64,000 nucleotides of DNA, from positions 132,523 to 196,522 of the forward strand of contig NZ_JAMDHK010000016.1 in assembly GCF_024721115.1 (NCBI RefSeq). Direction: 5' to 3'. The DNA is from Salipiger pentaromativorans. GTDB lineage: Bacteria > Pseudomonadota > Alphaproteobacteria > Rhodobacterales > Rhodobacteraceae. This document shows, one piece after another, positions 3,116 through 40,213 of this stretch. A program made the position numbers and the translations under genes. The notes under the pieces are model-generated. The model was not told the DNA's origin. It made no database searches and worked only from the letters and a program-made list of their open reading frames with translations. Positions within the stretch are counted from its first letter, which is position 1, and each line of letters starts with the position of its first letter.

Positions 3116-4600
3116 TCAGTAGCCTTCGCCGTCCTGCTGCCAGGGTTTCACCAGGTTGCCGAAGCGGGTGAACTGGCTTTCGAAGGAGAGTTCCACGGTG
3201 CCGATGGGGCCGTGACGCTGCTTGCCGATGATCACCTCGGCCTTGCCGTGCAGGCGGCTCATGCGCTCCTGCCAGGCGGCCATCTCGTCGAGCCGGTCGT
3301 CGGAGGGTTTCTCGCGCTCGACGTAATATTCCTCGCGGAAGACGAACATCACCACGTCGGCATCCTGTTCGATCGAGCCCGATTCGCGCAGGTCCGAGAG
3401 CTGCGGGCGCTTGTCGTCGCGGCTTTCCACCTGACGCGAGAGCTGCGACAGCGCGATCACCGGGATGTTCAGCTCCTTGGCGATGGCCTTGAGCCCCATG
3501 GAAATTTCCGCAATCTCCTGCACCCGGTTTTCGGCGGTGCCGCGCAGAAGCTGGAGATAGTCGACGATGATCAGGTCGAGCCCATGGGTCCGCTTGAGCC
3601 GCCGCGACCGGGCCGCGACCTGGGAGATCGGCAGGGCGGGCGTGTCGTCGATGAAGAGCGGGCAGGCCTCCAGCTCCTTGGCGGCATCGACGAAGCGGCG
3701 GAATTCCTTTTCGTCCATGTCGCCCTGGCGGATCTTGTGGCTGGAGATCTCGGAGGCTTCGGCGAGGATCCGGCTGGCAAGCTGCTCGGCGCTCATTTCG
3801 AGCGAGAAGAAGCCCACGACGCCGCCGTCGATGGCGCCCTCGCTGCCGTCGTGTTTCTGCCCGCGCTTGTAGGCCTTGGCGATGTTGAAGGCGATGTTGG
3901 TGGCGAGCGAGGTCTTGCCCATCGAGGGGCGCCCGGCGAGGATCAGCAGGTCGGAGGGGTGCAGCCCGCCCAGCTTCTTGTCCATGTCGATGAGGCCGGT
4001 GGAGATGCCGGCGAGCCCGCCTTCACGCTGATAGGCCGCGTTGGCGACGTTAACAGCATCCGTTACAGCCCTGAGAAAGCTCTGGAAACCGCCTTCGGTC
4101 TGGCCTTGCTCGGCGAGCTTGTAAAGCGCCTGTTCCGCCTCGACGATCTGCTCGCGCGGTTCGGATTTCACATCGACCTTGGAGGCCTTGGCCGAGATGT
4201 CGCGCCCCAGCGCGATCAGGTCGCGGCGCACCGCGAGATCGTAGATGATCTGCGCATAGTCGCGCACCGCGAAGCTGGACACGGCGGCACCGGCGAGCCG
4301 GGCGAGATAGGCCGGGCCGCCCAGCTCCTTCAGCCCCTCGTCATCCTCCATGAACGCCTTGAGCGTCACGGGCGAGGCAAGATTGTTCTTCGCGATGCGC
4401 GCCGCCGCGATCTCGAAGATGCGGGCGTGTACCGGCTCATAGAAGTGATGCGCGCCGAGGATCGCCGCGACCCGGTCGTAAATGTCGTTGTTGGTCAGGA
4501 TCGCGCCCAGCAATTGCTGCTCGGCCTCGATCGAATGCGGCATGGTCTCCGCCTGTTCGACCTCGACTCCGGCCGGATTGAACACGCTGTGGTCGTTCAT
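3116..4600 (-). CDS. dnaB: Replicative DNA helicase DnaB
   Basis: The hexameric 5'-3' helicase that unwinds DNA at the replication fork (494 residues). The N-terminal domain includes [15 protein letters not shown] (21-35). A RecA-like C-terminal domain carries Walker [10 protein letters not shown] (223-231), the FFSLEMS motif and Walker [13 protein letters not shown]. There is no intein or insertion. The open frame extends 23 codons upstream, but the ATG at 4600 has a GGGGGCAGAG ribosome site and gives the family-typical N-terminus. alr follows closely on the same strand. Confidence 0.95.
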
Positions 4601-31753: not shown

Positions 31754-32338
31754 TCAGGCAGAGGACGCGCGGGCGCCGGCCAGAAGCTGTTCGGCCATGG
31801 CCCGCGCGGTTGCCGCGAAGCTGGCGTCGCGGGTGTGCTGGGCCGCCACGATGGCGCCGTCGATCAGCACCGCGAAAGAGCGTGCGACCTCCTGCACATC
31901 GGGCAGGTTCATTTCGATGGCCTGTGCCTTGAGCCAGGTCATCAGATGCGACTTATGCGCCTCTGCGGCCTTGCGCACCGCATCGTTGCCGGTTTCGAAC
32001 TCGGCCACCGCATTGATGAAGGGGCAGCCGTAGAAACCGGGGTCGGAGAACCACTCGCCCAGCACGTCGAACACGGCCAGCATCCGCTGATCGGGCGCGC
32101 CCTGGATCTCGGCCAGCCGCCCGAAGAACCACGACCGCCAGGTCGCGCCCTCGGCGTTCAGCGCGGCCTCGATCAGCTCCTGTTTCGAGGAGAAGTGTTT
32201 ATAAAGCGTCGCCTTGGCCGTGCCCGCCTGCTCGATCACCGTGTCGATCCCCGTCGCCGCAAAGCCGTGGCGGCAGAACAATGTGGAGGCGGCGACGAGA
32301 ATGCGGTCGCGTGCCGTGCGGGGCTCGGACTGTGCCAT
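31754..32338 (-). CDS. TetR family transcriptional regulator
   Basis: A 194-residue repressor with an N-terminal helix-turn-helix (RILVAASTLFCRHGFAATGI, then GTAKATLYKHFSSKQEL, residues about 12-50) and a variable ligand domain. I start at the ATG at 32338; an in-frame ATG at 32392 would add 18 residues without a clear ribosome site. It is divergent from the ABC/cyanase cluster that starts at 32696, so it is the natural candidate regulator of that cluster. The effector is unknown. Confidence 0.85.
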   Translation of the reverse strand: MAQSEPRTARDRILVAASTLFCRHGFAATGIDTVIEQAGTAKATLYKHFSSKQELIEAALNAEGATWRSWFFGRLAEIQGAPDQRMLAVFDVLGEWFSDPGFYGCPFINAVAEFETGNDAVRKAAEAHKSHLMTWLKAQAIEMNLPDVQEVARSFAVLIDGAIVAAQHTRDASFAATARAMAEQLLAGARASSA

Positions 32339-32695
32339 GCTCCAGCGGCCGTTCGGGGGCGTGGGGCAGGCGGGATCGAGTGTCTTGAGCATGAGTCGGT
32401 ATCCGGGAACTGGCCTTTGGGAAACTATCGCAAGAGATGGTGGCACACGCAAGTAAAGGAGACAGATTCGTTCACCTTTGGCCGAGATGGTGCGGCTTTG
32501 CATCATTTCCGGGCATTCACCCGAAATACAGCCTTTTCGCGCTGAATATGCGCATTAATGGCGCAAATTTGCGTATAAAAAGCGGGCACAGAAAAAACTG
32601 AGGCATTTTTTAGGAGCCTGCGCTTGACGAGAATCGGGATTTATCTCCGAAATACAGACAGACCTGTTCGTCTGATTTTGGAGTGAAATGCTGAC
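32339..32695. other. Divergent intergenic region, tetR / ABC-cyanase cluster
   Basis: This 357-bp gap is markedly AT-rich in its middle (about 32510-32620), including TATAAAA at 32574-32580 and a GCGCATTAATGGCGC inverted repeat at about 32550-32564. TTGACG occurs at 32624-32629 but lacks a good -10 at the right distance. It probably holds both divergent promoters and the TetR operator. I see no gene in it. Confidence 0.5.
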
Positions 32696-33556
32696 ATGAT
32701 CTCGCAAGCCGCCTATGCGACTGCCTCCGCCAAACCCGCCTCGGCCGGGATTCGCCAAGCCGTTTCGCGCGGCGCGCATCTTGCGGTGATGGGGCTTGGC
32801 CACGCCTATCGCAAAAGCGACGGGATGGTGCTTGACGACATCAATTTCGAGGTGCGCCCGGGCGAGGTGCTGGCGCTTCTGGGGCGCTCGGGCTGCGGCA
32901 AGTCCACGCTTCTGCACATGCTGGCGGGGCTGACCCTGCCAAGCCGGGGCGAGGTGGTGATCAACGGCAATACCGTCACCGAACCATCGCCGAAATGGGT
33001 CATGATGTTTCAGGCGCCGTCGCTTTACCCTTGGATGACGGTGGCGCAGAACGCGGCGCTTGGTCTGCGCTTTACCCGCCGCGGCCACGAGATCGCCAAG
33101 CGCGTGCCCGAGGTGCTGGAGCTGGTCGATCTGGCGAGCTTTGCCGACCGCAACGCACAGGAACTCTCCGGCGGCCAGCAGCAGCGCGTGGCGCTGGCGC
33201 GGTCGCTGGCCACCAACCCCGAAATGCTGCTGCTCGACGAGCCGTTCTCGGCGCTCGACGCTTTTACCCGCCGTTCCTTACAGCGCGATGTGCGCGCCAT
33301 TGCGCGCAACCTCGGCCTGACGCTGGTGATCGTCACCCATGACGTCTCGGAGGCCGTGCGCATGGCCGACCGCGTGCTGGTGCTCGACGCCAATCCCGGG
33401 CGCATCGCCGAGGATACCGAGGTCGCGCTCGACGAGATGCAGCGCGAGGGCGGCTGCGACCGGTTCAACGCCGAGCATGTGCGCCTGATGGATCTTTATA
33501 CCCGCGTCGCCCACGGCGATCCCGCGGATGCCAGCGACGACAACGAACAATACTGA
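32696..33556 (+). CDS. ABC importer ATPase, nitrate/taurine/cyanate type
   Basis: A 286-residue ATPase of the NrtD/SsuB/TauB group. It has Walker A GRSGCGKST (63-71), signature LSGGQQQRVALARSLA and Walker B MLLLDEPFSALDAF, followed by THDVSEAVRMADRVLVL. The 30-residue N-terminal extension is unremarkable. It is the first gene of the cluster and is followed after 13 bp by the binding protein. A three-codon reading frame (ATG CTG ACA TGA, 32688-32699) with its own GGAG overlaps the start codon. The substrate is inferred from the downstream cyanase. Confidence 0.88.
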   Translation: MISQAAYATASAKPASAGIRQAVSRGAHLAVMGLGHAYRKSDGMVLDDINFEVRPGEVLALLGRSGCGKSTLLHMLAGLTLPSRGEVVINGNTVTEPSPKWVMMFQAPSLYPWMTVAQNAALGLRFTRRGHEIAKRVPEVLELVDLASFADRNAQELSGGQQQRVALARSLATNPEMLLLDEPFSALDAFTRRSLQRDVRAIARNLGLTLVIVTHDVSEAVRMADRVLVLDANPGRIAEDTEVALDEMQREGGCDRFNAEHVRLMDLYTRVAHGDPADASDDNEQY

Positions 33557-33569
33557 CAGCGAGGACCGG

Positions 33570-34847
33570 ATGACCGATTGCAAGACCCACTCTCACCACG
33601 ACCTGCACGCGGCCTGCTGCGGCCATGACGGCATCGACAAAGGCTTTGACCGGGGCCGCCGCATGACGCTCGACATGTTGGCGGGCGGCGGTCTGGCCGC
33701 CATGATGGGCGCGCTGACCGGCGGCTTGCCGATGCCCGCCATGGCGCAGGAGGACGATGTAGTGCGCATCGGCTATCTGCCGATCACCGACGCCACGCCG
33801 CTTCTGGTCGCCCATGCCAAGGGGTTCTATGCGGATGAGGGGCTCGAGGCCGAGCGCCCGACGCTGATCCGCGGCTGGTCGCCGCTGATCGAGGCGTTCG
33901 TCGCCGGCAAGTTCAACCTGGTGCATTTCCTCAAGCCGATCCCGGTCTGGATGCGCTACAACAACAACTTCCCGGTCAAGGTCATGGCCTGGGCGCATAC
34001 CAACGGCTCGGCGCTGGTGGTGGGCCGGCACACGGACATCGCGGATTTCGCCGGTCTCGGCGGCAAACAGGTGGCGGTGCCGTTCTGGTATTCGATGCAC
34101 AATATCGTGCTGCAATACGCGCTGCGCGCCAATGGCATCAAACCGGTGATCAAGGCGCAGGGCGAGCCGCTGGCCGCCGACGAATGCAACCTCCAGGTCC
34201 TGCCGCCGCCGGAAATGCCCCCCGCGCTCGCGGCAAAGAAGATCGACGCCTATATCGTGGCCGAACCCTTCAACGCGCTGGGTGAGCTGAAGGCCGGCGC
34301 GCGGATGCTGCGCTTTACCGGCGACATCTGGAAGAACCACCCCTGCTGCGTGGTCTGCATGAACGAGCAGGTGACCACGGCCAAGCCGGAATGGACCCAG
34401 AAGGTGATGAACGCCGTCGTGCGCGCCTCGGTCTATGCCAGCCAGAACAAGGAAGAGGTGGCCGAGCTGCTGTCGAAGGACGGCGAGGGCTATCTGCCGG
34501 CACCCGCGCCGGTGGTGAAGCGCGCGATGACGCTTTACGCCGATGACGCCACCTATCTGGAAACCGGCGCGATCAAGAACGAGGCCGAATACAAGAACGG
34601 CCGCATCGACTTCCAGCCCTGGCCCTATCCCTCGGCCACCAAGCTGATCGTGGAGGAGATGAACCAGACCGTGGTGTCGGGCGACGCCACCTTCCTCAGC
34701 GGGCTCGACCCCGAGTTCGTGGCGCAGGATCTGGTCAATTACGACTATGTGAAAGCCGCGCTTCAGAAATACCCCGAGTGGCAGAACGATCCTTCGGTGG
34801 CCACCGGCGGCGATCCCTTCACCCGCGAAGAGGTGCTGAAGCTGTGA
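33570..34847 (+). CDS. ABC importer solute-binding protein, NrtA/CynA-like, Tat-type signal
   Basis: A 425-residue periplasmic binding protein. A twin-arginine signal (GRRMTLDML, Arg30-Arg31) is followed by a hydrophobic stretch and a likely cleavage at AMAQ (about 60). The leader is unusually long and rich in His and Cys before the RR (Cys4, His7, His9, His10, His13, Cys16, Cys17, His19). The mature domain has RIGYLPITDATPLLVAHAKGFYADEG and GWSPLIEAFVAGKFNLVHFL, as in nitrate, bicarbonate and cyanate binding proteins. Tat export suggests folding or cofactor loading in the cytoplasm. The ligand (cyanate, thiocyanate or a related anion) is inferred from context. Confidence 0.85.
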   Translation: MTDCKTHSHHDLHAACCGHDGIDKGFDRGRRMTLDMLAGGGLAAMMGALTGGLPMPAMAQEDDVVRIGYLPITDATPLLVAHAKGFYADEGLEAERPTLIRGWSPLIEAFVAGKFNLVHFLKPIPVWMRYNNNFPVKVMAWAHTNGSALVVGRHTDIADFAGLGGKQVAVPFWYSMHNIVLQYALRANGIKPVIKAQGEPLAADECNLQVLPPPEMPPALAAKKIDAYIVAEPFNALGELKAGARMLRFTGDIWKNHPCCVVCMNEQVTTAKPEWTQKVMNAVVRASVYASQNKEEVAELLSKDGEGYLPAPAPVVKRAMTLYADDATYLETGAIKNEAEYKNGRIDFQPWPYPSATKLIVEEMNQTVVSGDATFLSGLDPEFVAQDLVNYDYVKAALQKYPEWQNDPSVATGGDPFTREEVLKL

Positions 34848-35665
34848 GCTCGATGGCCGACACCCCAAGCGTCAAGCTCGCGCTCCCGTCCATGGGCCGT
34901 CTGCGCGGCCTCGGCATGGGCGCGCTCGGCATCGCGGTGCTGCTGGGCCTCTGGTGGCTGGGCGGCTGGGCGGTGGCGAACGATCCCGACATGTTCGCCT
35001 TCGCCGATTTCGCCCCGGCGCCGACGCTTTCCGCGCTCTGGGACATCCTGAGGTCGGGCGAGGTCTTTGCGATGTCCGGCCCCTCGCTCTACCGCGTGGG
35101 CGCGGGGCTGCTGATCGCGGCGGCGCTGGGGGTGCCGGTGGGCATCGCCATCGGCCGCATCGACTGGCTGCGCGAGCTGACCAACGTGCCGTTCCAGTTC
35201 CTGCGGATGATCTCGCCGCTGAGCTGGATGCCCATCGCGGTCATGGTCTACGAGACCTGGGACGGCGCCATCGTCTTTCTGATCGGGGTGGCGGCGATCT
35301 GGCCGATCCTGTTCAGCACCGCCGCAGGGGTGCGCCGCATCGACCCGAGCTGGCTCAAGGTGGCGCGCAACCTGGGCGCCAACCCGATCCACATGCTCTT
35401 TGTGGTGATCCTGCCCGCCATCGCGGTGGATGTGCTGACCGGTATCCGGCTGGCGCTGGGGGTGGCCTGGGTGGTGCTGGTGCCCGCCGAATATCTCGGC
35501 GTCACCTCGGGGCTCGGCTACGCCATCAACGACGCCCGCGACACGCTGGATTACGCGCGCCTCGCCGCCGTGGTGGTGGTGATCGGGGCGATCGGCTTCG
35601 CCCTCGATTACGCCTGCGCGGCGCTCATCAAACGTTTCAACTGGGTGCGCGACAGCGCGCACTGA
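34844..35665 (+). CDS. ABC importer permease, nitrate/taurine/cyanate type
   Basis: A 273-residue inner-membrane permease with six to seven helices. The BPD-type coupling motif is visible around VARNLGANPIHMLFVVILPAI (EAA loop) and RLALGVAWVVLVPAEYLG. I start at the GTG at 34844, which overlaps the binding-protein stop (GTGA) and has AGAGG at fair spacing; the ATG at 34853 is an alternative. It completes a three-gene importer. Confidence 0.85.
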   Translation: MSSMADTPSVKLALPSMGRLRGLGMGALGIAVLLGLWWLGGWAVANDPDMFAFADFAPAPTLSALWDILRSGEVFAMSGPSLYRVGAGLLIAAALGVPVGIAIGRIDWLRELTNVPFQFLRMISPLSWMPIAVMVYETWDGAIVFLIGVAAIWPILFSTAAGVRRIDPSWLKVARNLGANPIHMLFVVILPAIAVDVLTGIRLALGVAWVVLVPAEYLGVTSGLGYAINDARDTLDYARLAAVVVVIGAIGFALDYACAALIKRFNWVRDSAH

Positions 35666-35707
35666 CCGATCCACCAGACAGACGACTGTTTCATAAAGGA
35701 GGAAACC

Positions 35708-36244
35708 ATGTCTGAACCCGCAACCGCACTGACCGGCTGCCTTGCGCCGATCGACAAGACCGGGCTCGACGGCCTGATCGAGCAGGGCAAGGCCAACCCC
35801 AAAGCCGTCAAGACGCTGAAATGCAAGACCGTTGCCGAGGGCCGCTTCCGCCACGCCAACTATATCCGCGATCTCGATCCCTATATCGTGGACGAGCCGC
35901 CCGGGCTTCTGGGCGACGACACCGCGCCGAACCCCTCCGAGGCCTCGCTGGCCGCTCTGGGCTCCTGCGTTGCCGTCGGCCTGCACGCCAACGCCATCGC
36001 CCGCGGCATCACCATCCAGTCCCTGGAACTGGTGCTTGAGGGCGATCTGAACATCACCGCCGTCTGGGGCACGGGCGACGTGTCGGAGAAGCCGGTGGGC
36101 TTCACCGATGTGCGCATCAAGGTCGATATGAAGGCCGACTGCCCGCAAGAGGAAATCGACGCGCTGATCGCCCATGTGATCCAGTGGTCGCCGGTGTTCA
36201 ACACCTTCTCGCGCCCCGTGAACATGGTCGCCGAGGCGGTCTGA
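35708..36244 (+). CDS. OsmC/Ohr family thiol-dependent protein
   Basis: A 178-residue OsmC-fold protein. The two redox cysteines expected in the family are visible: Cys87 in ALGSCVAVGLHANA and Cys145 in MKADCPQEE. Cys11 and Cys39 are extra. OsmC proteins reduce organic peroxides, and some handle other thiol-reactive substrates or sulfane sulfur. An excellent AAAGGAGG ribosome site precedes the ATG. Lying between an importer and a rhodanese, it may protect against or process a reactive sulfur intermediate; that role is inference. Confidence 0.82.
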   Translation: MSEPATALTGCLAPIDKTGLDGLIEQGKANPKAVKTLKCKTVAEGRFRHANYIRDLDPYIVDEPPGLLGDDTAPNPSEASLAALGSCVAVGLHANAIARGITIQSLELVLEGDLNITAVWGTGDVSEKPVGFTDVRIKVDMKADCPQEEIDALIAHVIQWSPVFNTFSRPVNMVAEAV

Positions 36245-36253
36245 TCCGTCTGT

Positions 36254-36287
36254 CCCGCCCCCCGTTGCCGCGCGGCAGGGGGGCGGG
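36254..36287 (+). other. Strong intercistronic hairpin (OsmC / flavoprotein gap)
   Basis: CCCGCCCCCC (36254-36263) pairs perfectly with GGGGGGCGGG (36278-36287), and the loop contains a second palindrome, TGCCGCGCGGCA. There is no T-run, so it is more likely an mRNA processing or stability element than a terminator. Confidence 0.55.
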
Positions 36288-36335
36288 GCCCACCCCATCC
36301 GTACCGACATGCCCGCCTTGCCAGGAGCCCCCGAC

Positions 36336-37439
36336 ATGAACATCGCCACCCCCCTGAACGTGGTCGATTTCGACGCCATCGAGCGGATCTCGAAAACCGA
36401 TCTCGCCCCCATCGCTCGCAAGATCGACGAAGAGCGTATCTATCCCGAAGAGATCATGCGCGCCCTGGGCGCGGCGGGGGCCTATGGCACCCATATCGGC
36501 GGCAGCGACGCGGCGACCGATCTGTCCGAGGCGATCCTTGCGATGTCCCGGGCCTCGGAAACCTGTCTTTCGACCGGCTTCTGCATGTGGTGCCAGGATG
36601 CGCTGGCCTGGTACATCGCCTCGTCGGAAAACGACTGGCTGAAAACCAGCATCCTGCCCGGCGTGGCCAGGGGCGAGATCCTCGGCGGCACCGGCATGTC
36701 GAACCCGATGAAATCCATCGCCGAGATCGAGCCGCTGCGCCTCAAGGGCAAGCGCGTCGAGGGCGGCTATCAGGTCAAGGGCCTGCTGCCCTGGGTCTCG
36801 AACCTGTCCGACGGCGGCTATTTCGGCGTGATGTTCTCGGTCGAGGAGGGCGACGCGGTCAAGACCGTCATGGCCATCGCCCATGCGGACGAGGCCAAGG
36901 GCGTGCGTCTGAAGCTCGACCACGAATTTGTCGCCATGGGCGGCACGGCCACGGTCAACGTCCAGTTCCGCGACGTGTTCATCCCCGACGAACAGGTGAT
37001 CGGCGACCCGGCGCCGGCATTCATCAAGCGCATCCGCGGCGGCTTTGTGCTGCTGCAATGCGGCATGGCCGCCGGCATGATCAAAAGCGCCATCGACCTG
37101 ATGGTGCAGGTCGAAAAGCCGCTGGGTCATGTGAACCGCTATCTCGAAAAGCAGCCGGCGGATTTCCAGGCGGAATACGATGCGCTGGTGGCCGAGGTGC
37201 TGGAGCTGTCGAAAACCCCTTATGACGAAAGCCCGGATTACTGGAAGCGCGTGCTTCAGGCGCGGCTGACCGGCGGCGAGCTGGCGGTCGAGGCGGCGCA
37301 TTACGCCATGCTGCATTGCGGGGCGCGCGGCTATGTCAGCCAGGGCGTGGCGCAGCGGCGGCTGCGCGAAGCCTATTTCGTGGCCATCGTGACCCCCGCG
37401 ACCAAGCACCTGCGCAAGATGCTGGCCGAGCTGGGCTGA
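36336..37439 (+). CDS. Acyl-CoA dehydrogenase-fold flavoprotein, probable monooxygenase type
   Basis: A 367-residue protein with the three acyl-CoA dehydrogenase domains: an N-terminal helical part, a middle beta-domain (GGTGMSNPMKSIAEIEPL, 117-134) and a C-terminal four-helix bundle. In true dehydrogenases the segment after GY near the end carries the catalytic Glu; here RGYVSQGVAQRRLREA has Gln336 at about that position. Loss of this base is typical of flavin-dependent oxygenases of this fold, so oxygenation of a nitrogen or sulfur compound is plausible. The ATG at 36336 has AGGAG eight bases upstream. The partner reductase could be the FAD enzyme at 38981. The substrate is unknown. Confidence 0.8.
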   Translation: MNIATPLNVVDFDAIERISKTDLAPIARKIDEERIYPEEIMRALGAAGAYGTHIGGSDAATDLSEAILAMSRASETCLSTGFCMWCQDALAWYIASSENDWLKTSILPGVARGEILGGTGMSNPMKSIAEIEPLRLKGKRVEGGYQVKGLLPWVSNLSDGGYFGVMFSVEEGDAVKTVMAIAHADEAKGVRLKLDHEFVAMGGTATVNVQFRDVFIPDEQVIGDPAPAFIKRIRGGFVLLQCGMAAGMIKSAIDLMVQVEKPLGHVNRYLEKQPADFQAEYDALVAEVLELSKTPYDESPDYWKRVLQARLTGGELAVEAAHYAMLHCGARGYVSQGVAQRRLREAYFVAIVTPATKHLRKMLAELG

Positions 37440-37468
37440 TCCGTCCCGGATCCTTGGAAAACCGCAAC

Positions 37469-37491
37469 GGCGGCGCGCGATCCGCGCCGCC
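37469..37491 (+). other. Intercistronic hairpin before the rhodanese gene
   Basis: GGCGGCGCG and CGCGCCGCC form a perfect 9-bp stem with a CGATC loop, 30 bp after the flavoprotein stop. There is no T-run. The rest of the 139-bp gap shows no other feature. Confidence 0.5.
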
Positions 37492-37578
37492 GGACGGGGA
37501 AGAACGGCCCGGACACAGGGCCGCGGAAGACCGACGAAGATTTGCGAACAGGACTCCCAACAGAGAGGAAATGCCGAA

Positions 37579-38436
37579 ATGACGTCTGCCCTTGTCACTC
37601 CCGAAGAGCTGTCGAAAATGGTCGATGCCGAGGTTGCCGTGGTGATCGACACCCGCGACCCCGAAAGCTACGCCGCGGGCCATATCCCCGGCGCGGTCAA
37701 CATGCATGACATCTTCACCTATCTCGCCACCTCCGACGCCTCGGGCATGTCCGAGCTGAAAGAGAAATTCGCCGCCGAATTCGGCGCGGCGGGGCTCGAC
37801 GGCGAAAAGACCGCCGTGATCTACGAAGCCTCGATGAACACCGGCTTCGGCCAGTCCTGCCGGGGCTTCTATCTGCTGAGCTTCCTCGGCTATCCCAAGG
37901 TCAAGGTGCTGCATGGCGGCTTTGCCGCCTGGACGACCGAGGGCATGCCCGTCTCGACCGAAGCGGTCACGCCGGTGCCGGGCAGCTTCGAGATCGACGA
38001 GGCCGCCGCCGCGATCATGATGGATGCCGAGGACATGAAGGCCGCCATCGCGGACGAGGGGGCCGTCATCCTCGACGTGCGCGACATCGACGAATGGATC
38101 GCCACCTCGTCTTCGCCCTATGGCGTCGATTTCTGCCCGCGCAAGGGCCGCATCCCCGGTGCCGTCTGGATCGAATGGTATCGCATGATGAAGCCCACCG
38201 CGCTTGGCCCGATGCTGAAATCCAAGGACGAGGTGCTGGCCGAATGCGCCACCGTCGGCATCACGCCCGACACGCCGGTCAAGCTCTATTGCTTCAAGGG
38301 CGCGCGTGCCTCGAACACCTTCCTCGCGCTGAAAGAGGCGGGGGTGAAGGATGTCGCGATCTATTTCGGCTCGTGGAACGAATGGTCGCGCGACCCGTCC
38401 CTGCCGATCGAGGAAGGGCTGCCCTTCGGCGCCTGA
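37579..38436 (+). CDS. Two-domain rhodanese (sulfurtransferase)
   Basis: A 285-residue tandem rhodanese that moves sulfane sulfur between thiols, cyanide or other acceptors. The N-terminal domain (about 5-125, IDTRDPESYAAGHIPGAVN) lacks a usable active loop. The C-terminal domain (about 145-280) has LDVRDIDEW and the active-site Cys238 in the loop CFKGARA. A three-codon frame (ATG CCG AAA TGA, 37571-37582) overlaps the start. Lying directly before cyanase, it points to a substrate containing both sulfur and a cyanate-type carbon-nitrogen unit. Confidence 0.88.
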   Translation: MTSALVTPEELSKMVDAEVAVVIDTRDPESYAAGHIPGAVNMHDIFTYLATSDASGMSELKEKFAAEFGAAGLDGEKTAVIYEASMNTGFGQSCRGFYLLSFLGYPKVKVLHGGFAAWTTEGMPVSTEAVTPVPGSFEIDEAAAAIMMDAEDMKAAIADEGAVILDVRDIDEWIATSSSPYGVDFCPRKGRIPGAVWIEWYRMMKPTALGPMLKSKDEVLAECATVGITPDTPVKLYCFKGARASNTFLALKEAGVKDVAIYFGSWNEWSRDPSLPIEEGLPFGA

Positions 38437-38475
38437 TCTTCAAACGATACCAACCACCTGAACGGAGACCTTACC

Positions 38476-38928
38476 ATGACCACCCGTGCCGAGCTGACCG
38501 AGAAAATCGTCGCGCACAAGACCTTCAACGACATCAAATGGGCCGATGTGGCCGCTGCTGTCGGCCAGTCCAAGGAATGGACCACCGCCGCGCTGATGGG
38601 GCAGATCTCGCTCACCAAGGAGCAGATCGAAAAGGCCGGCAACGCGATGGGCCTCAACTTCTCGGACGAGGAAATCGCGCTGCTGATGACCGTGCCCTAT
38701 CGCGGCTCGCTGCCCACTGCCGTGCCCACCGATCCGCTGATCTACCGCCTTTACGAAGTGGTGAACGTCTACGGCACCACCATGAAGGCGCTGATCGAGG
38801 AAGAGTTCGGCGACGGCATCATGTCGGCCATCGACTTCACCATGGACATCTCGCGCACCGAAGACCCCAAGGGCGACCGCGTGAAGATCGTGCTCGACGG
38901 CAAGTTCCTGCCCTACAAGATGTATTGA
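38476..38928 (+). CDS. cynS: Cyanase (cyanate hydratase)
   Basis: Catalyses bicarbonate-dependent decomposition of cyanate to ammonia and CO2 (150 residues; family about 150-160, a decamer). The catalytic triad is present as Arg91 and Glu94 in YRLYEVVNVYG and Ser117 in GDGIMSAIDF. An N-terminal helical domain precedes it. An ATG with GGAGACC upstream starts it 39 bp after the rhodanese gene. No cynT carbonic anhydrase or LysR-type cynR is nearby, unlike E. coli; the candidate regulator is TetR-type. Confidence 0.95.
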   Translation: MTTRAELTEKIVAHKTFNDIKWADVAAAVGQSKEWTTAALMGQISLTKEQIEKAGNAMGLNFSDEEIALLMTVPYRGSLPTAVPTDPLIYRLYEVVNVYGTTMKALIEEEFGDGIMSAIDFTMDISRTEDPKGDRVKIVLDGKFLPYKMY

Positions 38929-38937
38929 TCCCGTCGC

Positions 38938-38959
38938 GGGGGCGGTCATGGCCGCCCCC
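38938..38959 (+). other. Intercistronic hairpin after cynS
   Basis: GGGGGCGG and CCGCCCCC form an 8-bp perfect stem with a six-base loop between cynS and the reductase gene. The next ribosome site, GGAGG, follows shortly. There is no T-run. Confidence 0.45.
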
Positions 38960-38980
38960 GGACCCTCGGAGGATTTTCCC

Positions 38981-40213
38981 ATGACCCATATCGCGATCGT
39001 GGGCGCGGGCCAGGCGGGCTCGGCGCTGGCGGCGAAACTGCGCGCGCTGACATTCGACGGGCGCATCAGCCTGATCGGCGAAGAGCCCGCGCCGCCTTAT
39101 CAGCGCCCGCCGCTGTCGAAGAAATACATGTCGGGCGAGATGGCGCTGGAACGGCTCTATCTGCGTCCCGAGAGCTTTTACGCCGAGCAGGAGATCGCGC
39201 TGCGCACGGGCTGCCGGGTCACCGGGCTGTCGGCGGAGACGCGGCAGCTTGCGCTGACGGGGGGCGAGACGCTCGATTGCGATGCGGTGGTGCTGTGCAC
39301 CGGGGCCGCGCCGATCCGTCTGCCCGCCGCCATCGGCGGCGATTTGGCTGGCGTCCATGTGATGCGCAGCCTTGCCGATGCCGATGCCATGGCGCCGGAA
39401 TTCGGTGCCGGACGTCATGTTCTGATCGTGGGCGGCGGCTATATCGGTCTTGAGGCCGCGGCGGTGGCCGCCGCCAAGGGGCTGAAGGTCACGCTGGTGG
39501 AAATGGCGCCGCGCATTCTGGCGCGGGTCGCGGCCCCCGAGACCGCCGCCTATTTCCGCGCGCTGCATCGCGGGCACGGGGTCGAGATCCTCGAAGGCAC
39601 GGGGCTGACCGGGCTGACCGGGCGCGATGGCCGCGTATGCGAGGCAACGCTCACCGACGGGCGCCGGATCGCGGTGGATTTCGTGATCGCCGGGATCGGG
39701 GTGCGCCCCGACACCGCGCTGGCCGAGGCGGCCGGTCTGGCGCTGGAGGACGGGATTGCCGTCGATGCGCTGGGGCAGAGCTCGGCGCCGGGCATTTATG
39801 CGGCGGGCGATTGCGCCTCGTTTCCCTGGCGGGGCGGGCGGCTGCGGCTGGAAAGCGTGCCGAATGCCATCGACCACGCCGAGGCGGTGGCCGCCACGCT
39901 TATGGGGCAGGGCGCGCCCTATGTGCCAAGGCCCTGGTTCTGGTCCGATCAATACGATGTGAAACTCCAGATCGCCGGGCTGAACAGCGGTTACGACCGG
40001 GTTATTCACCGCCCCGGCGACAGGCCCGGCGCGCAAAGCCACTGGTATTTCCGGGGCACGACCCTGCTGTCGGTGGATGCGATGAACGATCCGCGCGCCT
40101 ATATGGCGGGCAAGCGGTTGATCGACGCCGGAAAATCGCCGCTGATCGACGCGGTGGCCGATCCTGGAACGGCGCTGAAGGCGCTGCCGCTCGCCACGGC
40201 GGAACCGGCCTGA
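38981..40213 (+). CDS. FAD/NAD(P)H-dependent oxidoreductase, ferredoxin/rubredoxin reductase type
   Basis: A 410-residue two-dinucleotide-fold flavoprotein. FAD binding is at IVGAGQAGSALA (5-16), NAD(P) binding at VGGGYIGLEAAAVA, and the second FAD motif is YAAGDCASF. The C-terminal reductase domain carries YDVKLQIAGL and HWYFRGTTLL. Such enzymes feed electrons to small iron-sulfur proteins or oxygenases. No ferredoxin gene is adjacent, so its partner may be the flavoprotein at 36336 or a distant ferredoxin. GGAGG precedes the ATG at 38981. It is the last gene of the cluster and is convergent with the ABC-F gene. Confidence 0.85.
   Translation: MTHIAIVGAGQAGSALAAKLRALTFDGRISLIGEEPAPPYQRPPLSKKYMSGEMALERLYLRPESFYAEQEIALRTGCRVTGLSAETRQLALTGGETLDCDAVVLCTGAAPIRLPAAIGGDLAGVHVMRSLADADAMAPEFGAGRHVLIVGGGYIGLEAAAVAAAKGLKVTLVEMAPRILARVAAPETAAYFRALHRGHGVEILEGTGLTGLTGRDGRVCEATLTDGRRIAVDFVIAGIGVRPDTALAEAAGLALEDGIAVDALGQSSAPGIYAAGDCASFPWRGGRLRLESVPNAIDHAEAVAATLMGQGAPYVPRPWFWSDQYDVKLQIAGLNSGYDRVIHRPGDRPGAQSHWYFRGTTLLSVDAMNDPRAYMAGKRLIDAGKSPLIDAVADPGTALKALPLATAEPA

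Follow-up and report, generated by a model that had tools for sequence, protein, structure and literature searches.

Gene content of the locus and conservation of its order

The window considered here is a 64,000-nucleotide stretch of DNA from Salipiger pentaromativorans, whose own genome (coded G000) measures 5.28 Mb, and the system in question is an operon at positions 32696-40213 for which a role in thiocyanate use is proposed. The initial annotation had listed at this place an ATP-binding cassette (ABC) importer of the NrtA/CynA type, an OsmC-like protein, an acyl-CoA-dehydrogenase-fold (ACAD-fold) flavoprotein, a rhodanese, a cyanase and an FAD reductase, with a divergent TetR gene, and the open reading frames (ORFs) together with Pfam and NCBIfam models bear this list out. 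Indeed, eight open frames were confirmed on the plus strand, with the TetR gene divergent; the likely starts of the substrate-binding protein (SBP; 33570), the permease (34853), the flavoprotein (hereafter ACAD; 36336), the FAD reductase (38981) and TetR (32338, minus strand) were picked by us. The features are as follows:

31754..32338, minus strand: TetR-family regulator, divergent (Pfam TetR_N and TetR_C_13)
32656..32673, no strand assigned: imperfect palindrome AGACAGACCTGTTCGTCT resembling an operator, 22 bases upstream of the ATPase start
32696..33556, plus strand: ABC importer ATPase (Pfam ABC_tran)
33570..34847, plus strand: substrate-binding protein SBP-A with a twin-arginine motif (NMT1_2, 158 bits)
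34853..35665, plus strand: ABC permease (BPD_transp_1)
35708..36244, plus strand: OsmC-like protein (Pfam OsmC, 61 bits)
36336..37439, plus strand: ACAD-fold flavoprotein, the proposed thiocyanate-oxidising enzyme (Acyl-CoA_dh_N)
37579..38436, plus strand: two-domain rhodanese/sulfurtransferase (Pfam Rhodanese, two stretches)
38476..38928, plus strand: cyanase, cynS (TIGR00673, 171.3 bits against a cut-off of 113.3)
38981..40213, plus strand: ferredoxin-reductase-type FAD oxidoreductase, the proposed electron supply (Pyr_redox_2 and Reductase_C)

A scan of contigs from other genomes identified 22 related loci, in 19 of which the order TetR (divergent), ATPase, SBP, permease, OsmC, ACAD and rhodanese is complete. 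The initial annotation had named an unconserved gene order as an outcome that would refute it, and its idea survived this test. The exceptions are L016, where rhodanese has no match, L019, which is cut by the contig, and L033, which is without TetR and rhodanese and whose ACAD is 44% identical. TetR copies stand at the equivalent place in 20 of the 22 loci. Among named genomes the closest ACAD proteins are those of Antarcticimicrobium luteum (86%) and Thalassovita gelatinovora (84%), and the operon is also carried by Thioclava pacifica DSM 10166 (L026). The flanking ORFs of the 22 loci mostly fall in no shared cluster, as judged with a crude gene caller that misses some operon genes; a chance neighbourhood was rejected on the basis of this kept order amid varied flanks.

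With regard to the importer, the solved chains closest to SBP-A carry the labels CmpC, NrtC and NrtA, and its twin-arginine pair is invariant in 13 of 13 aligned sequences. The importer is thus of the NrtA/CmpA type, but SBP-A reaches no NCBIfam cut-off, so that the ligand is not given by the models; the ATPase falls below the cut-off of each of the 25 NCBIfam models listed for it (the best 25 of 188). The rhodanese reads CFKGAR at its motif and has 1e0c as its nearest solved structure.

Palindrome-like sites resembling the candidate operator occur in 14 of 18 regions upstream of the ATPase gene versus a mean of 1.43 in 200 mononucleotide shuffles, for a motif that was chosen post hoc. The 139-base gap 5' of the rhodanese gene gave a weak RNA structure signal (z -1.9; 6 of 200 shuffles equal) that was not used, and sigma-70 promoters and terminators were no commoner than in shuffles. 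Ten flanking ORFs were scanned, nine of them from CMD-type or ACAD-only loci (CMD denoting an AhpD-like thiol protein) and the tenth from an OsmC-type locus (L121); no sulfur genes were found among them. Six encode regulators, and the others a citrate transporter, SelA, a cytochrome c and an EamA protein. Plasmid records also carry the cluster or related versions, namely Pseudosulfitobacter p3, SC52 (L067), Marinobacter, Acetobacter, Caballeronia and Methylocystis. On Pseudosulfitobacter p3 (L068, 5054-8968), the ATPase gene is annotated short and adjoins Mu/TniB/TniQ transposition genes, with IS5 further on.

Association of the flavoprotein with cyanase

In a family sample of 198 genomes, ACAD was found in 8 and cynS in 25. 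All 8 ACAD-positive genomes, the window's own genome counted among them, hold cynS, versus 17 of the 190 without ACAD (Fisher 2.1e-8, a value that, like those given below, is overstated as genomes are not independent draws). In a set of carriers of this same ACAD, cynS is present in 24 of 25 distinct genomes; these derive from 30 entries, 29 of them cynS-positive, in which five pairs proved to be the same genome by coordinates. A class-wide search of 385 genomes returned ACAD in only 3, thus indicating a patchy distribution. In a phylum sample of 398 genomes, the wider ACAD family occurs in 24 and cynS in 68. When divided by the thiol gene adjoining ACAD, these 24 genomes comprise 14 of OsmC type, two of which also hold CMD-type copies, and 10 of CMD type only. 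The OsmC-type genomes contain cynS in 13 of 14 cases against 51 of the 374 ACAD-less phylum genomes (Fisher 2.7e-10, overstated also because five of the OsmC-type genomes share the genus code g461), and in 10 of the 13 it is linked to ACAD within about 11 kb. In the co-occurrence check proposed in the initial annotation, cynS and the flavoprotein thus go strongly together, also when cynS is not part of the locus or belongs to another lineage.

The position of cynS varies among the 22 related loci. It directly follows the rhodanese gene in 11 of them, lies upstream in L015 (47%), is found in strongly diverged form 3' of the FAD reductase in L020, and belongs to a separate CynABD-cynS set downstream in L031 and L032. 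In six further loci (L014, L016 and L027-L030) it falls beyond the roughly 15 kb fetched and yet in the genome, and in L033 it is nowhere in the genome. In the metagenome-assembled genome of L019, one of the 11 with cynS directly after rhodanese, the cynS gene (3444-3897) is split over two frames, perhaps by an assembly error.

The surroundings of cynS were also fetched for 50 of the 68 cynS-positive, ACAD-less genomes (17 of 17 from the family, 33 of 51 from the phylum), as stretches of about 11 kb, two of them shorter. At an E-value threshold of 1e-8, none of these 50 loci has OsmC, rhodanese, ACAD, CMD or SBP-A nearby; CynABD is found in 14 of them and a weak FAD-reductase match (28-31%) in 5. 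On a cynS tree of 92 rows, built from a short alignment with one broken row dropped and 36 forks left open, the label 'linked to ACAD' changes 12 times, gains and losses being counted alike, and at least 7 of these changes are forced by starred branches. The linked cynS genes of G722 and G790, situated at or past the edges of what was fetched, are not part of this tree, in which the ACAD-linked genes are spread over several separate parts.

An ordinary sulfonate, taurine or nitrate importer as the whole story was rejected, as the presence of ACAD predicts that of cynS. Collectively, the conserved order and the co-occurrence with cynS indicate a real functional unit: the cluster is a conserved and recurrently assembled catabolic unit.

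The flavoprotein and its partners across architectures

ACAD scores above the Pfam cut-off for Acyl-CoA_dh_N and slightly under that for Acyl-CoA_dh_1 (21.8 versus 22.4). Its predicted structure (pLDDT 91.4) has 1ws9 as the best Foldseek match (TM 0.84, 21% identity), and the 50 matches listed are mostly named acyl-CoA dehydrogenases, the top two being unnamed structural-genomics entries. Thr353 of ACAD, within the motif VTPA, occupies the position at which 1ws9 has the Glu of its EGT motif, which we take to be the catalytic Glu of acyl-CoA dehydrogenases. All 19 aligned relatives keep the Thr-Pro pair; a classical fatty-acid dehydrogenase was rejected since the catalytic Glu is absent from all of them. 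SfnB and other ACAD-fold monooxygenases, as well as the SCAD-type acyl-CoA dehydrogenases, thus have the fold in common with ACAD, which differs from them by this invariant Thr-Pro in place of the catalytic Glu. The SfnB model TIGR04022 does not match the window ACAD at an E-value of 1e-3 and gives 46 bits, far under the cut-off of 431, with the CMD-type ACAD of Agrobacterium.

OsmC/Ohr peroxidases use two catalytic cysteines. In the OsmC-like protein, one Cys (in the motif GSC) is invariant in 44 of 44 relatives and further ones are kept in 36, 37 and 21 of 44, while the AhpD-like CMD proteins have a CxxC and a third Cys in all 20 rows. A DsbA-like thioredoxin-fold gene lies directly 3' of the rhodanese gene in two lineages (L031, 8970-9581; L068, 13609-14214); its product is another possible thiol or persulfide partner.

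As for the electron supply, an FAD reductase homologue is present in 15 of the 22 related loci (in one it is cut, in another only 47%), and in four loci the reductase is followed by a 107-residue ORF, these ORFs forming one sequence cluster of which the member scanned is a 2Fe-2S ferredoxin. Other architectures have an alternative chain of rubredoxin and a NorW-like reductase. The electron partners thus differ across loci and are equivalent in kind, and they suggest a reaction that consumes NAD(P)H and, by extension, a monooxygenase.

Overall, ACAD was found in members of the Alpha-, Beta- and Gammaproteobacteria, and more remote relatives occur in cyanobacteria, Thermomicrobiota and Deinococcota. 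The Marinobacter plasmid has an ABC importer, a sigma-54 regulator, OsmC, ACAD, a rubredoxin-FAD reductase and cynS; the Acetobacter and Caballeronia plasmids have OsmC, ACAD, a rubredoxin-FAD reductase (domains scanned in Caballeronia; 'rubredoxin' by annotation only in Acetobacter), a CynA-type ABC importer and cynS. In Caballeronia, cynS is followed by an MBL protein whose best NCBIfam match, below cut-off, is the sulfur transferase/dioxygenase Blh. Five genomes of one genus code (g461, perhaps Bradyrhizobium-like) carry a divergent TetR gene and OsmC-ACAD-rhodanese beside CynABD and cynS. Among CMD-type clusters, that of Moraxella comprises CMD, ACAD, an FAD oxidoreductase and an NrtA-type ABC importer, and those of Agrobacterium, Roseomonas, Deinococcus and Bartonella consist of CMD-ACAD-ABC. 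The stretches from Marinobacter, Methylocystis, Moraxella, Acetobacter and Caballeronia retain importer, thiol protein and ACAD and contain no match to rhodanese.

A DUF4242 (SCO4226-like) protein takes the place before ACAD and ABC genes in Thermomicrobium and on the Synechococcus plasmid pANL, where the kin follow genes for cysK and gamma-glutamyltransferase. Passages of PMC9239245 mention a pANL sulfur cluster and passages of PMC8049743 report that srpI, also on pANL, is induced by sulfur starvation; the ACAD-ABC genes of pANL are not named in those passages of either source.

Near the CMD-type clusters, one cluster of flanking ORFs encodes AraC-cupin regulators in the 4 examined of its 5 members (L125, 9831-10730; L127, 6461-7360; L133, 9787-10806; L135, 6201-7283). 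For those of L125 and L127 the best NCBIfam model is RclR, at 81.7 and 86.5 bits, far below the cut-off of 400. In Neisseria gonorrhoeae (L078, 7398-9056), adjacent genes encode an AhpD-like CxxC protein of the CMD type and ACAD, with no match to the ABC genes of the window in the 17-kb stretch.

A candidate route from thiocyanate to cyanate

SBP-A coexists with a separate CynABD-cynS set in L031 and L032 and thus probably has a cargo other than cyanate. A cyanase-requiring product, recurring sulfur-handling proteins and an importer of the small-anion type together point to thiocyanate, the simplest S-C-N anion. On this genomic evidence we lean towards an operon for thiocyanate assimilation, in which the anion is imported and oxidised by ACAD to cyanate and sulfane sulfur. 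In particular, SBP-A, with its twin-arginine signal, and its ABC partners would import SCN-; the FAD reductase would feed electrons via ferredoxin or rubredoxin to ACAD, which would activate O2 and oxidise SCN- at its sulfur atom, a hypothiocyanite-like adduct being the probable intermediate. Cyanate would then be released and split by cyanase to CO2 and ammonia, the sulfur would move as sulfane sulfur onto the invariant Cys of OsmC and be passed by rhodanese to sulfur metabolism, and TetR would regulate the operon. The initial annotation had proposed import and oxidation to cyanate plus sulfur: the part that concerns a cyanase-needing product is well supported, and the release of sulfur is supported by the rhodanese, the persulfide-dioxygenase-like MBL protein and the pANL sulfur region, while thiocyanate as substrate and ACAD as the enzyme are what we infer. 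Its idea of a new key step is strengthened and still unproven. All in all, the best-supported role appears to be that thiocyanate, or a closely related S-C-N compound, is turned into cyanate and sulfane sulfur by a new type of enzyme.

The absence of a thiocyanate hydrolase, claimed earlier for the region, now extends to the whole genome G000, which has zero matches to NHase_alpha (PF02979), presumably the superfamily of that enzyme; G000 has three matches to SoxZ-family proteins. The hydrolase cluster (scnABC) of the carbonyl sulfide pathway, from which the window system is set apart by this absence, also has an ABC importer of the NitT/TauT family and, in T. thioparus, a cyanase (passages of PMC5328954). 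The copper thiocyanate dehydrogenase (TcDH) cluster of the 'cyanate pathway' in Thioalkalivibrio has the net reaction proposed here, thiocyanate to cyanate and sulfur, and also ABC transporter genes (passages of PMC5328954 and PMC5744179). TcDH is described, in passages of PMC6504805, as a copper enzyme that is exported and whose assay uses cytochrome c550, which sets it apart from the window system with its flavoprotein (no export signal by eye), reductase, OsmC and rhodanese. The cynABDS cyanate operon combines cynS with an importer whose SBP falls in the same broad family, but SBP-A is only 27-28% identical to CynA-type SBPs and belongs to another subfamily, and OsmC, ACAD and rhodanese, all present in the window, are missing from the 50 ACAD-less cynS loci. 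No description of the operon was found in full-text searches of open-access literature, subscription papers being mostly not covered. With regard to thiocyanate itself, a thiocyanate-fed groundwater consortium held a Rhodobacteraceae operational taxonomic unit whose 16S is 98% like that of Thioclava pacifica, and its authors suggest, in passages of PMC6440457, that thiocyanate was used mainly as a nitrogen source; this context, like the NitT/TauT genes and cyanase near scnABC, is supportive yet circumstantial.

Several observations weigh against thiocyanate oxidation by this operon. Genomes whose ACAD is solely of the CMD type have cynS in just 4 of 10 cases (Fisher 0.04 against the 51 of 374 without ACAD), and in none of them is it linked. 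The unit of importer, OsmC and ACAD occurs in L033 and G762, whose genomes lack cynS and which have no rhodanese match close by. An NHase_alpha-family protein is found elsewhere in 14 of 30 ACAD-positive genomes tested (24 of the 25 distinct carriers and 6 of 23 other phylum-sample carriers), where a nitrile or thiocyanate hydrolase is thus possible. In addition, cyanase is said in print not to mark the cyanate pathway, and T. thioparus has cyanase beside thiocyanate hydrolase (passages of PMC5328954).

Other readings of the same genes can be weighed on this evidence. The substrate might be an organic S-C-N or organosulfur compound (isothiocyanate, thiourea, thiocarbamate) that the flavoprotein desulfurises, with cyanate arising later. 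ACAD-fold enzymes are indeed known for organic substrates, the Agrobacterium CMD-type ACAD has its weak SfnB-family score, and the chemistry proposed for ACAD is a prediction; we nevertheless regard this as unlikely, as SBP-A is nearest to NrtA/CmpA-family chains, which presumably bind small inorganic anions, the importer adjoining ACAD is of the CynA/NrtA type in Acetobacter, Moraxella and Caballeronia, and the conserved unit has no hydrolase, amidase or decarboxylase for the organic remainder. It is somewhat less probable still that two unrelated neighbours, one module for a sulfur source (importer-OsmC-ACAD-rhodanese) and another for using cyanate (cynS), have been joined because both are of use in the same habitats: repeated linkage with cynS of different lineages, its presence in the genome even when outside the locus, and genes that run in one direction in Rhodobacteraceae, Marinobacter, Acetobacter and Caballeronia argue for one system, against which stand the CMD-type kin without linked cynS and the OsmC-ACAD-rhodanese genes beside canonical cynABDS in the five g461 genomes.

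Rhodanese and cyanase form a textbook cyanide pairing, and the electron-supply partners would suit a monooxygenase also in a cyanide detoxification in which the flavoprotein makes cyanate, rhodanese makes thiocyanate and cyanase clears the product. Neutral HCN requires no ABC importer, and the five architectures from Marinobacter to Caballeronia keep importer, thiol protein and ACAD with no rhodanese match, making this very improbable; the kin within the pANL sulfur region (passages of PMC9239245) speak against it as well. Defence against hypothiocyanite/HOSCN-type oxidants by the thiol protein and flavoprotein has the slimmest chance of all, since a dedicated importer would be the wrong way round for detoxification and cyanase would not be needed; it draws on the AhpD-like CxxC proteins of the CMD-type clusters and on the RclR-like AraC-cupin regulators near them.

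HOSCN is the expected product of thiocyanate S-oxygenation. RclR and the AhpD-like RclX guard P. aeruginosa against HOSCN (passages of PMC7950407), and the RclR-like regulators, the AhpD-like CMD and this chemistry together weakly hint that, in thiocyanate oxidation, the thiol partner deals with an intermediate resembling hypothiocyanite, an attractive and unproven idea. More broadly, and tentatively, at somewhat short of even chances, ACAD with its thiol partner (OsmC, AhpD-like CMD, or perhaps an SCO4226-like protein) may constitute a widespread and so far unrecognised flavin-dependent thiocyanate monooxygenase that yields cyanate together with a persulfide on the protein and has no relation to TcDH or thiocyanate hydrolase. 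To our knowledge, these two are the only enzymes known for thiocyanate use by heterotrophs, and heterotrophs of several genera grow on it as a nitrogen source. The latter is reported in passages of PMC5328954. Such a monooxygenase would be the missing key enzyme for their use of thiocyanate nitrogen and sulfur, perhaps also for Synechococcus under sulfur starvation. If true, it would be a third, unrelated enzyme that opens thiocyanate; its gene would mark a flow now missing from the nitrogen and sulfur cycles, and it would offer a new candidate for the cleaning of mine and coking waste water. It would also make a long-standing question testable through a single gene deletion, and could explain how ordinary bacteria feed on thiocyanate, a common pollutant.

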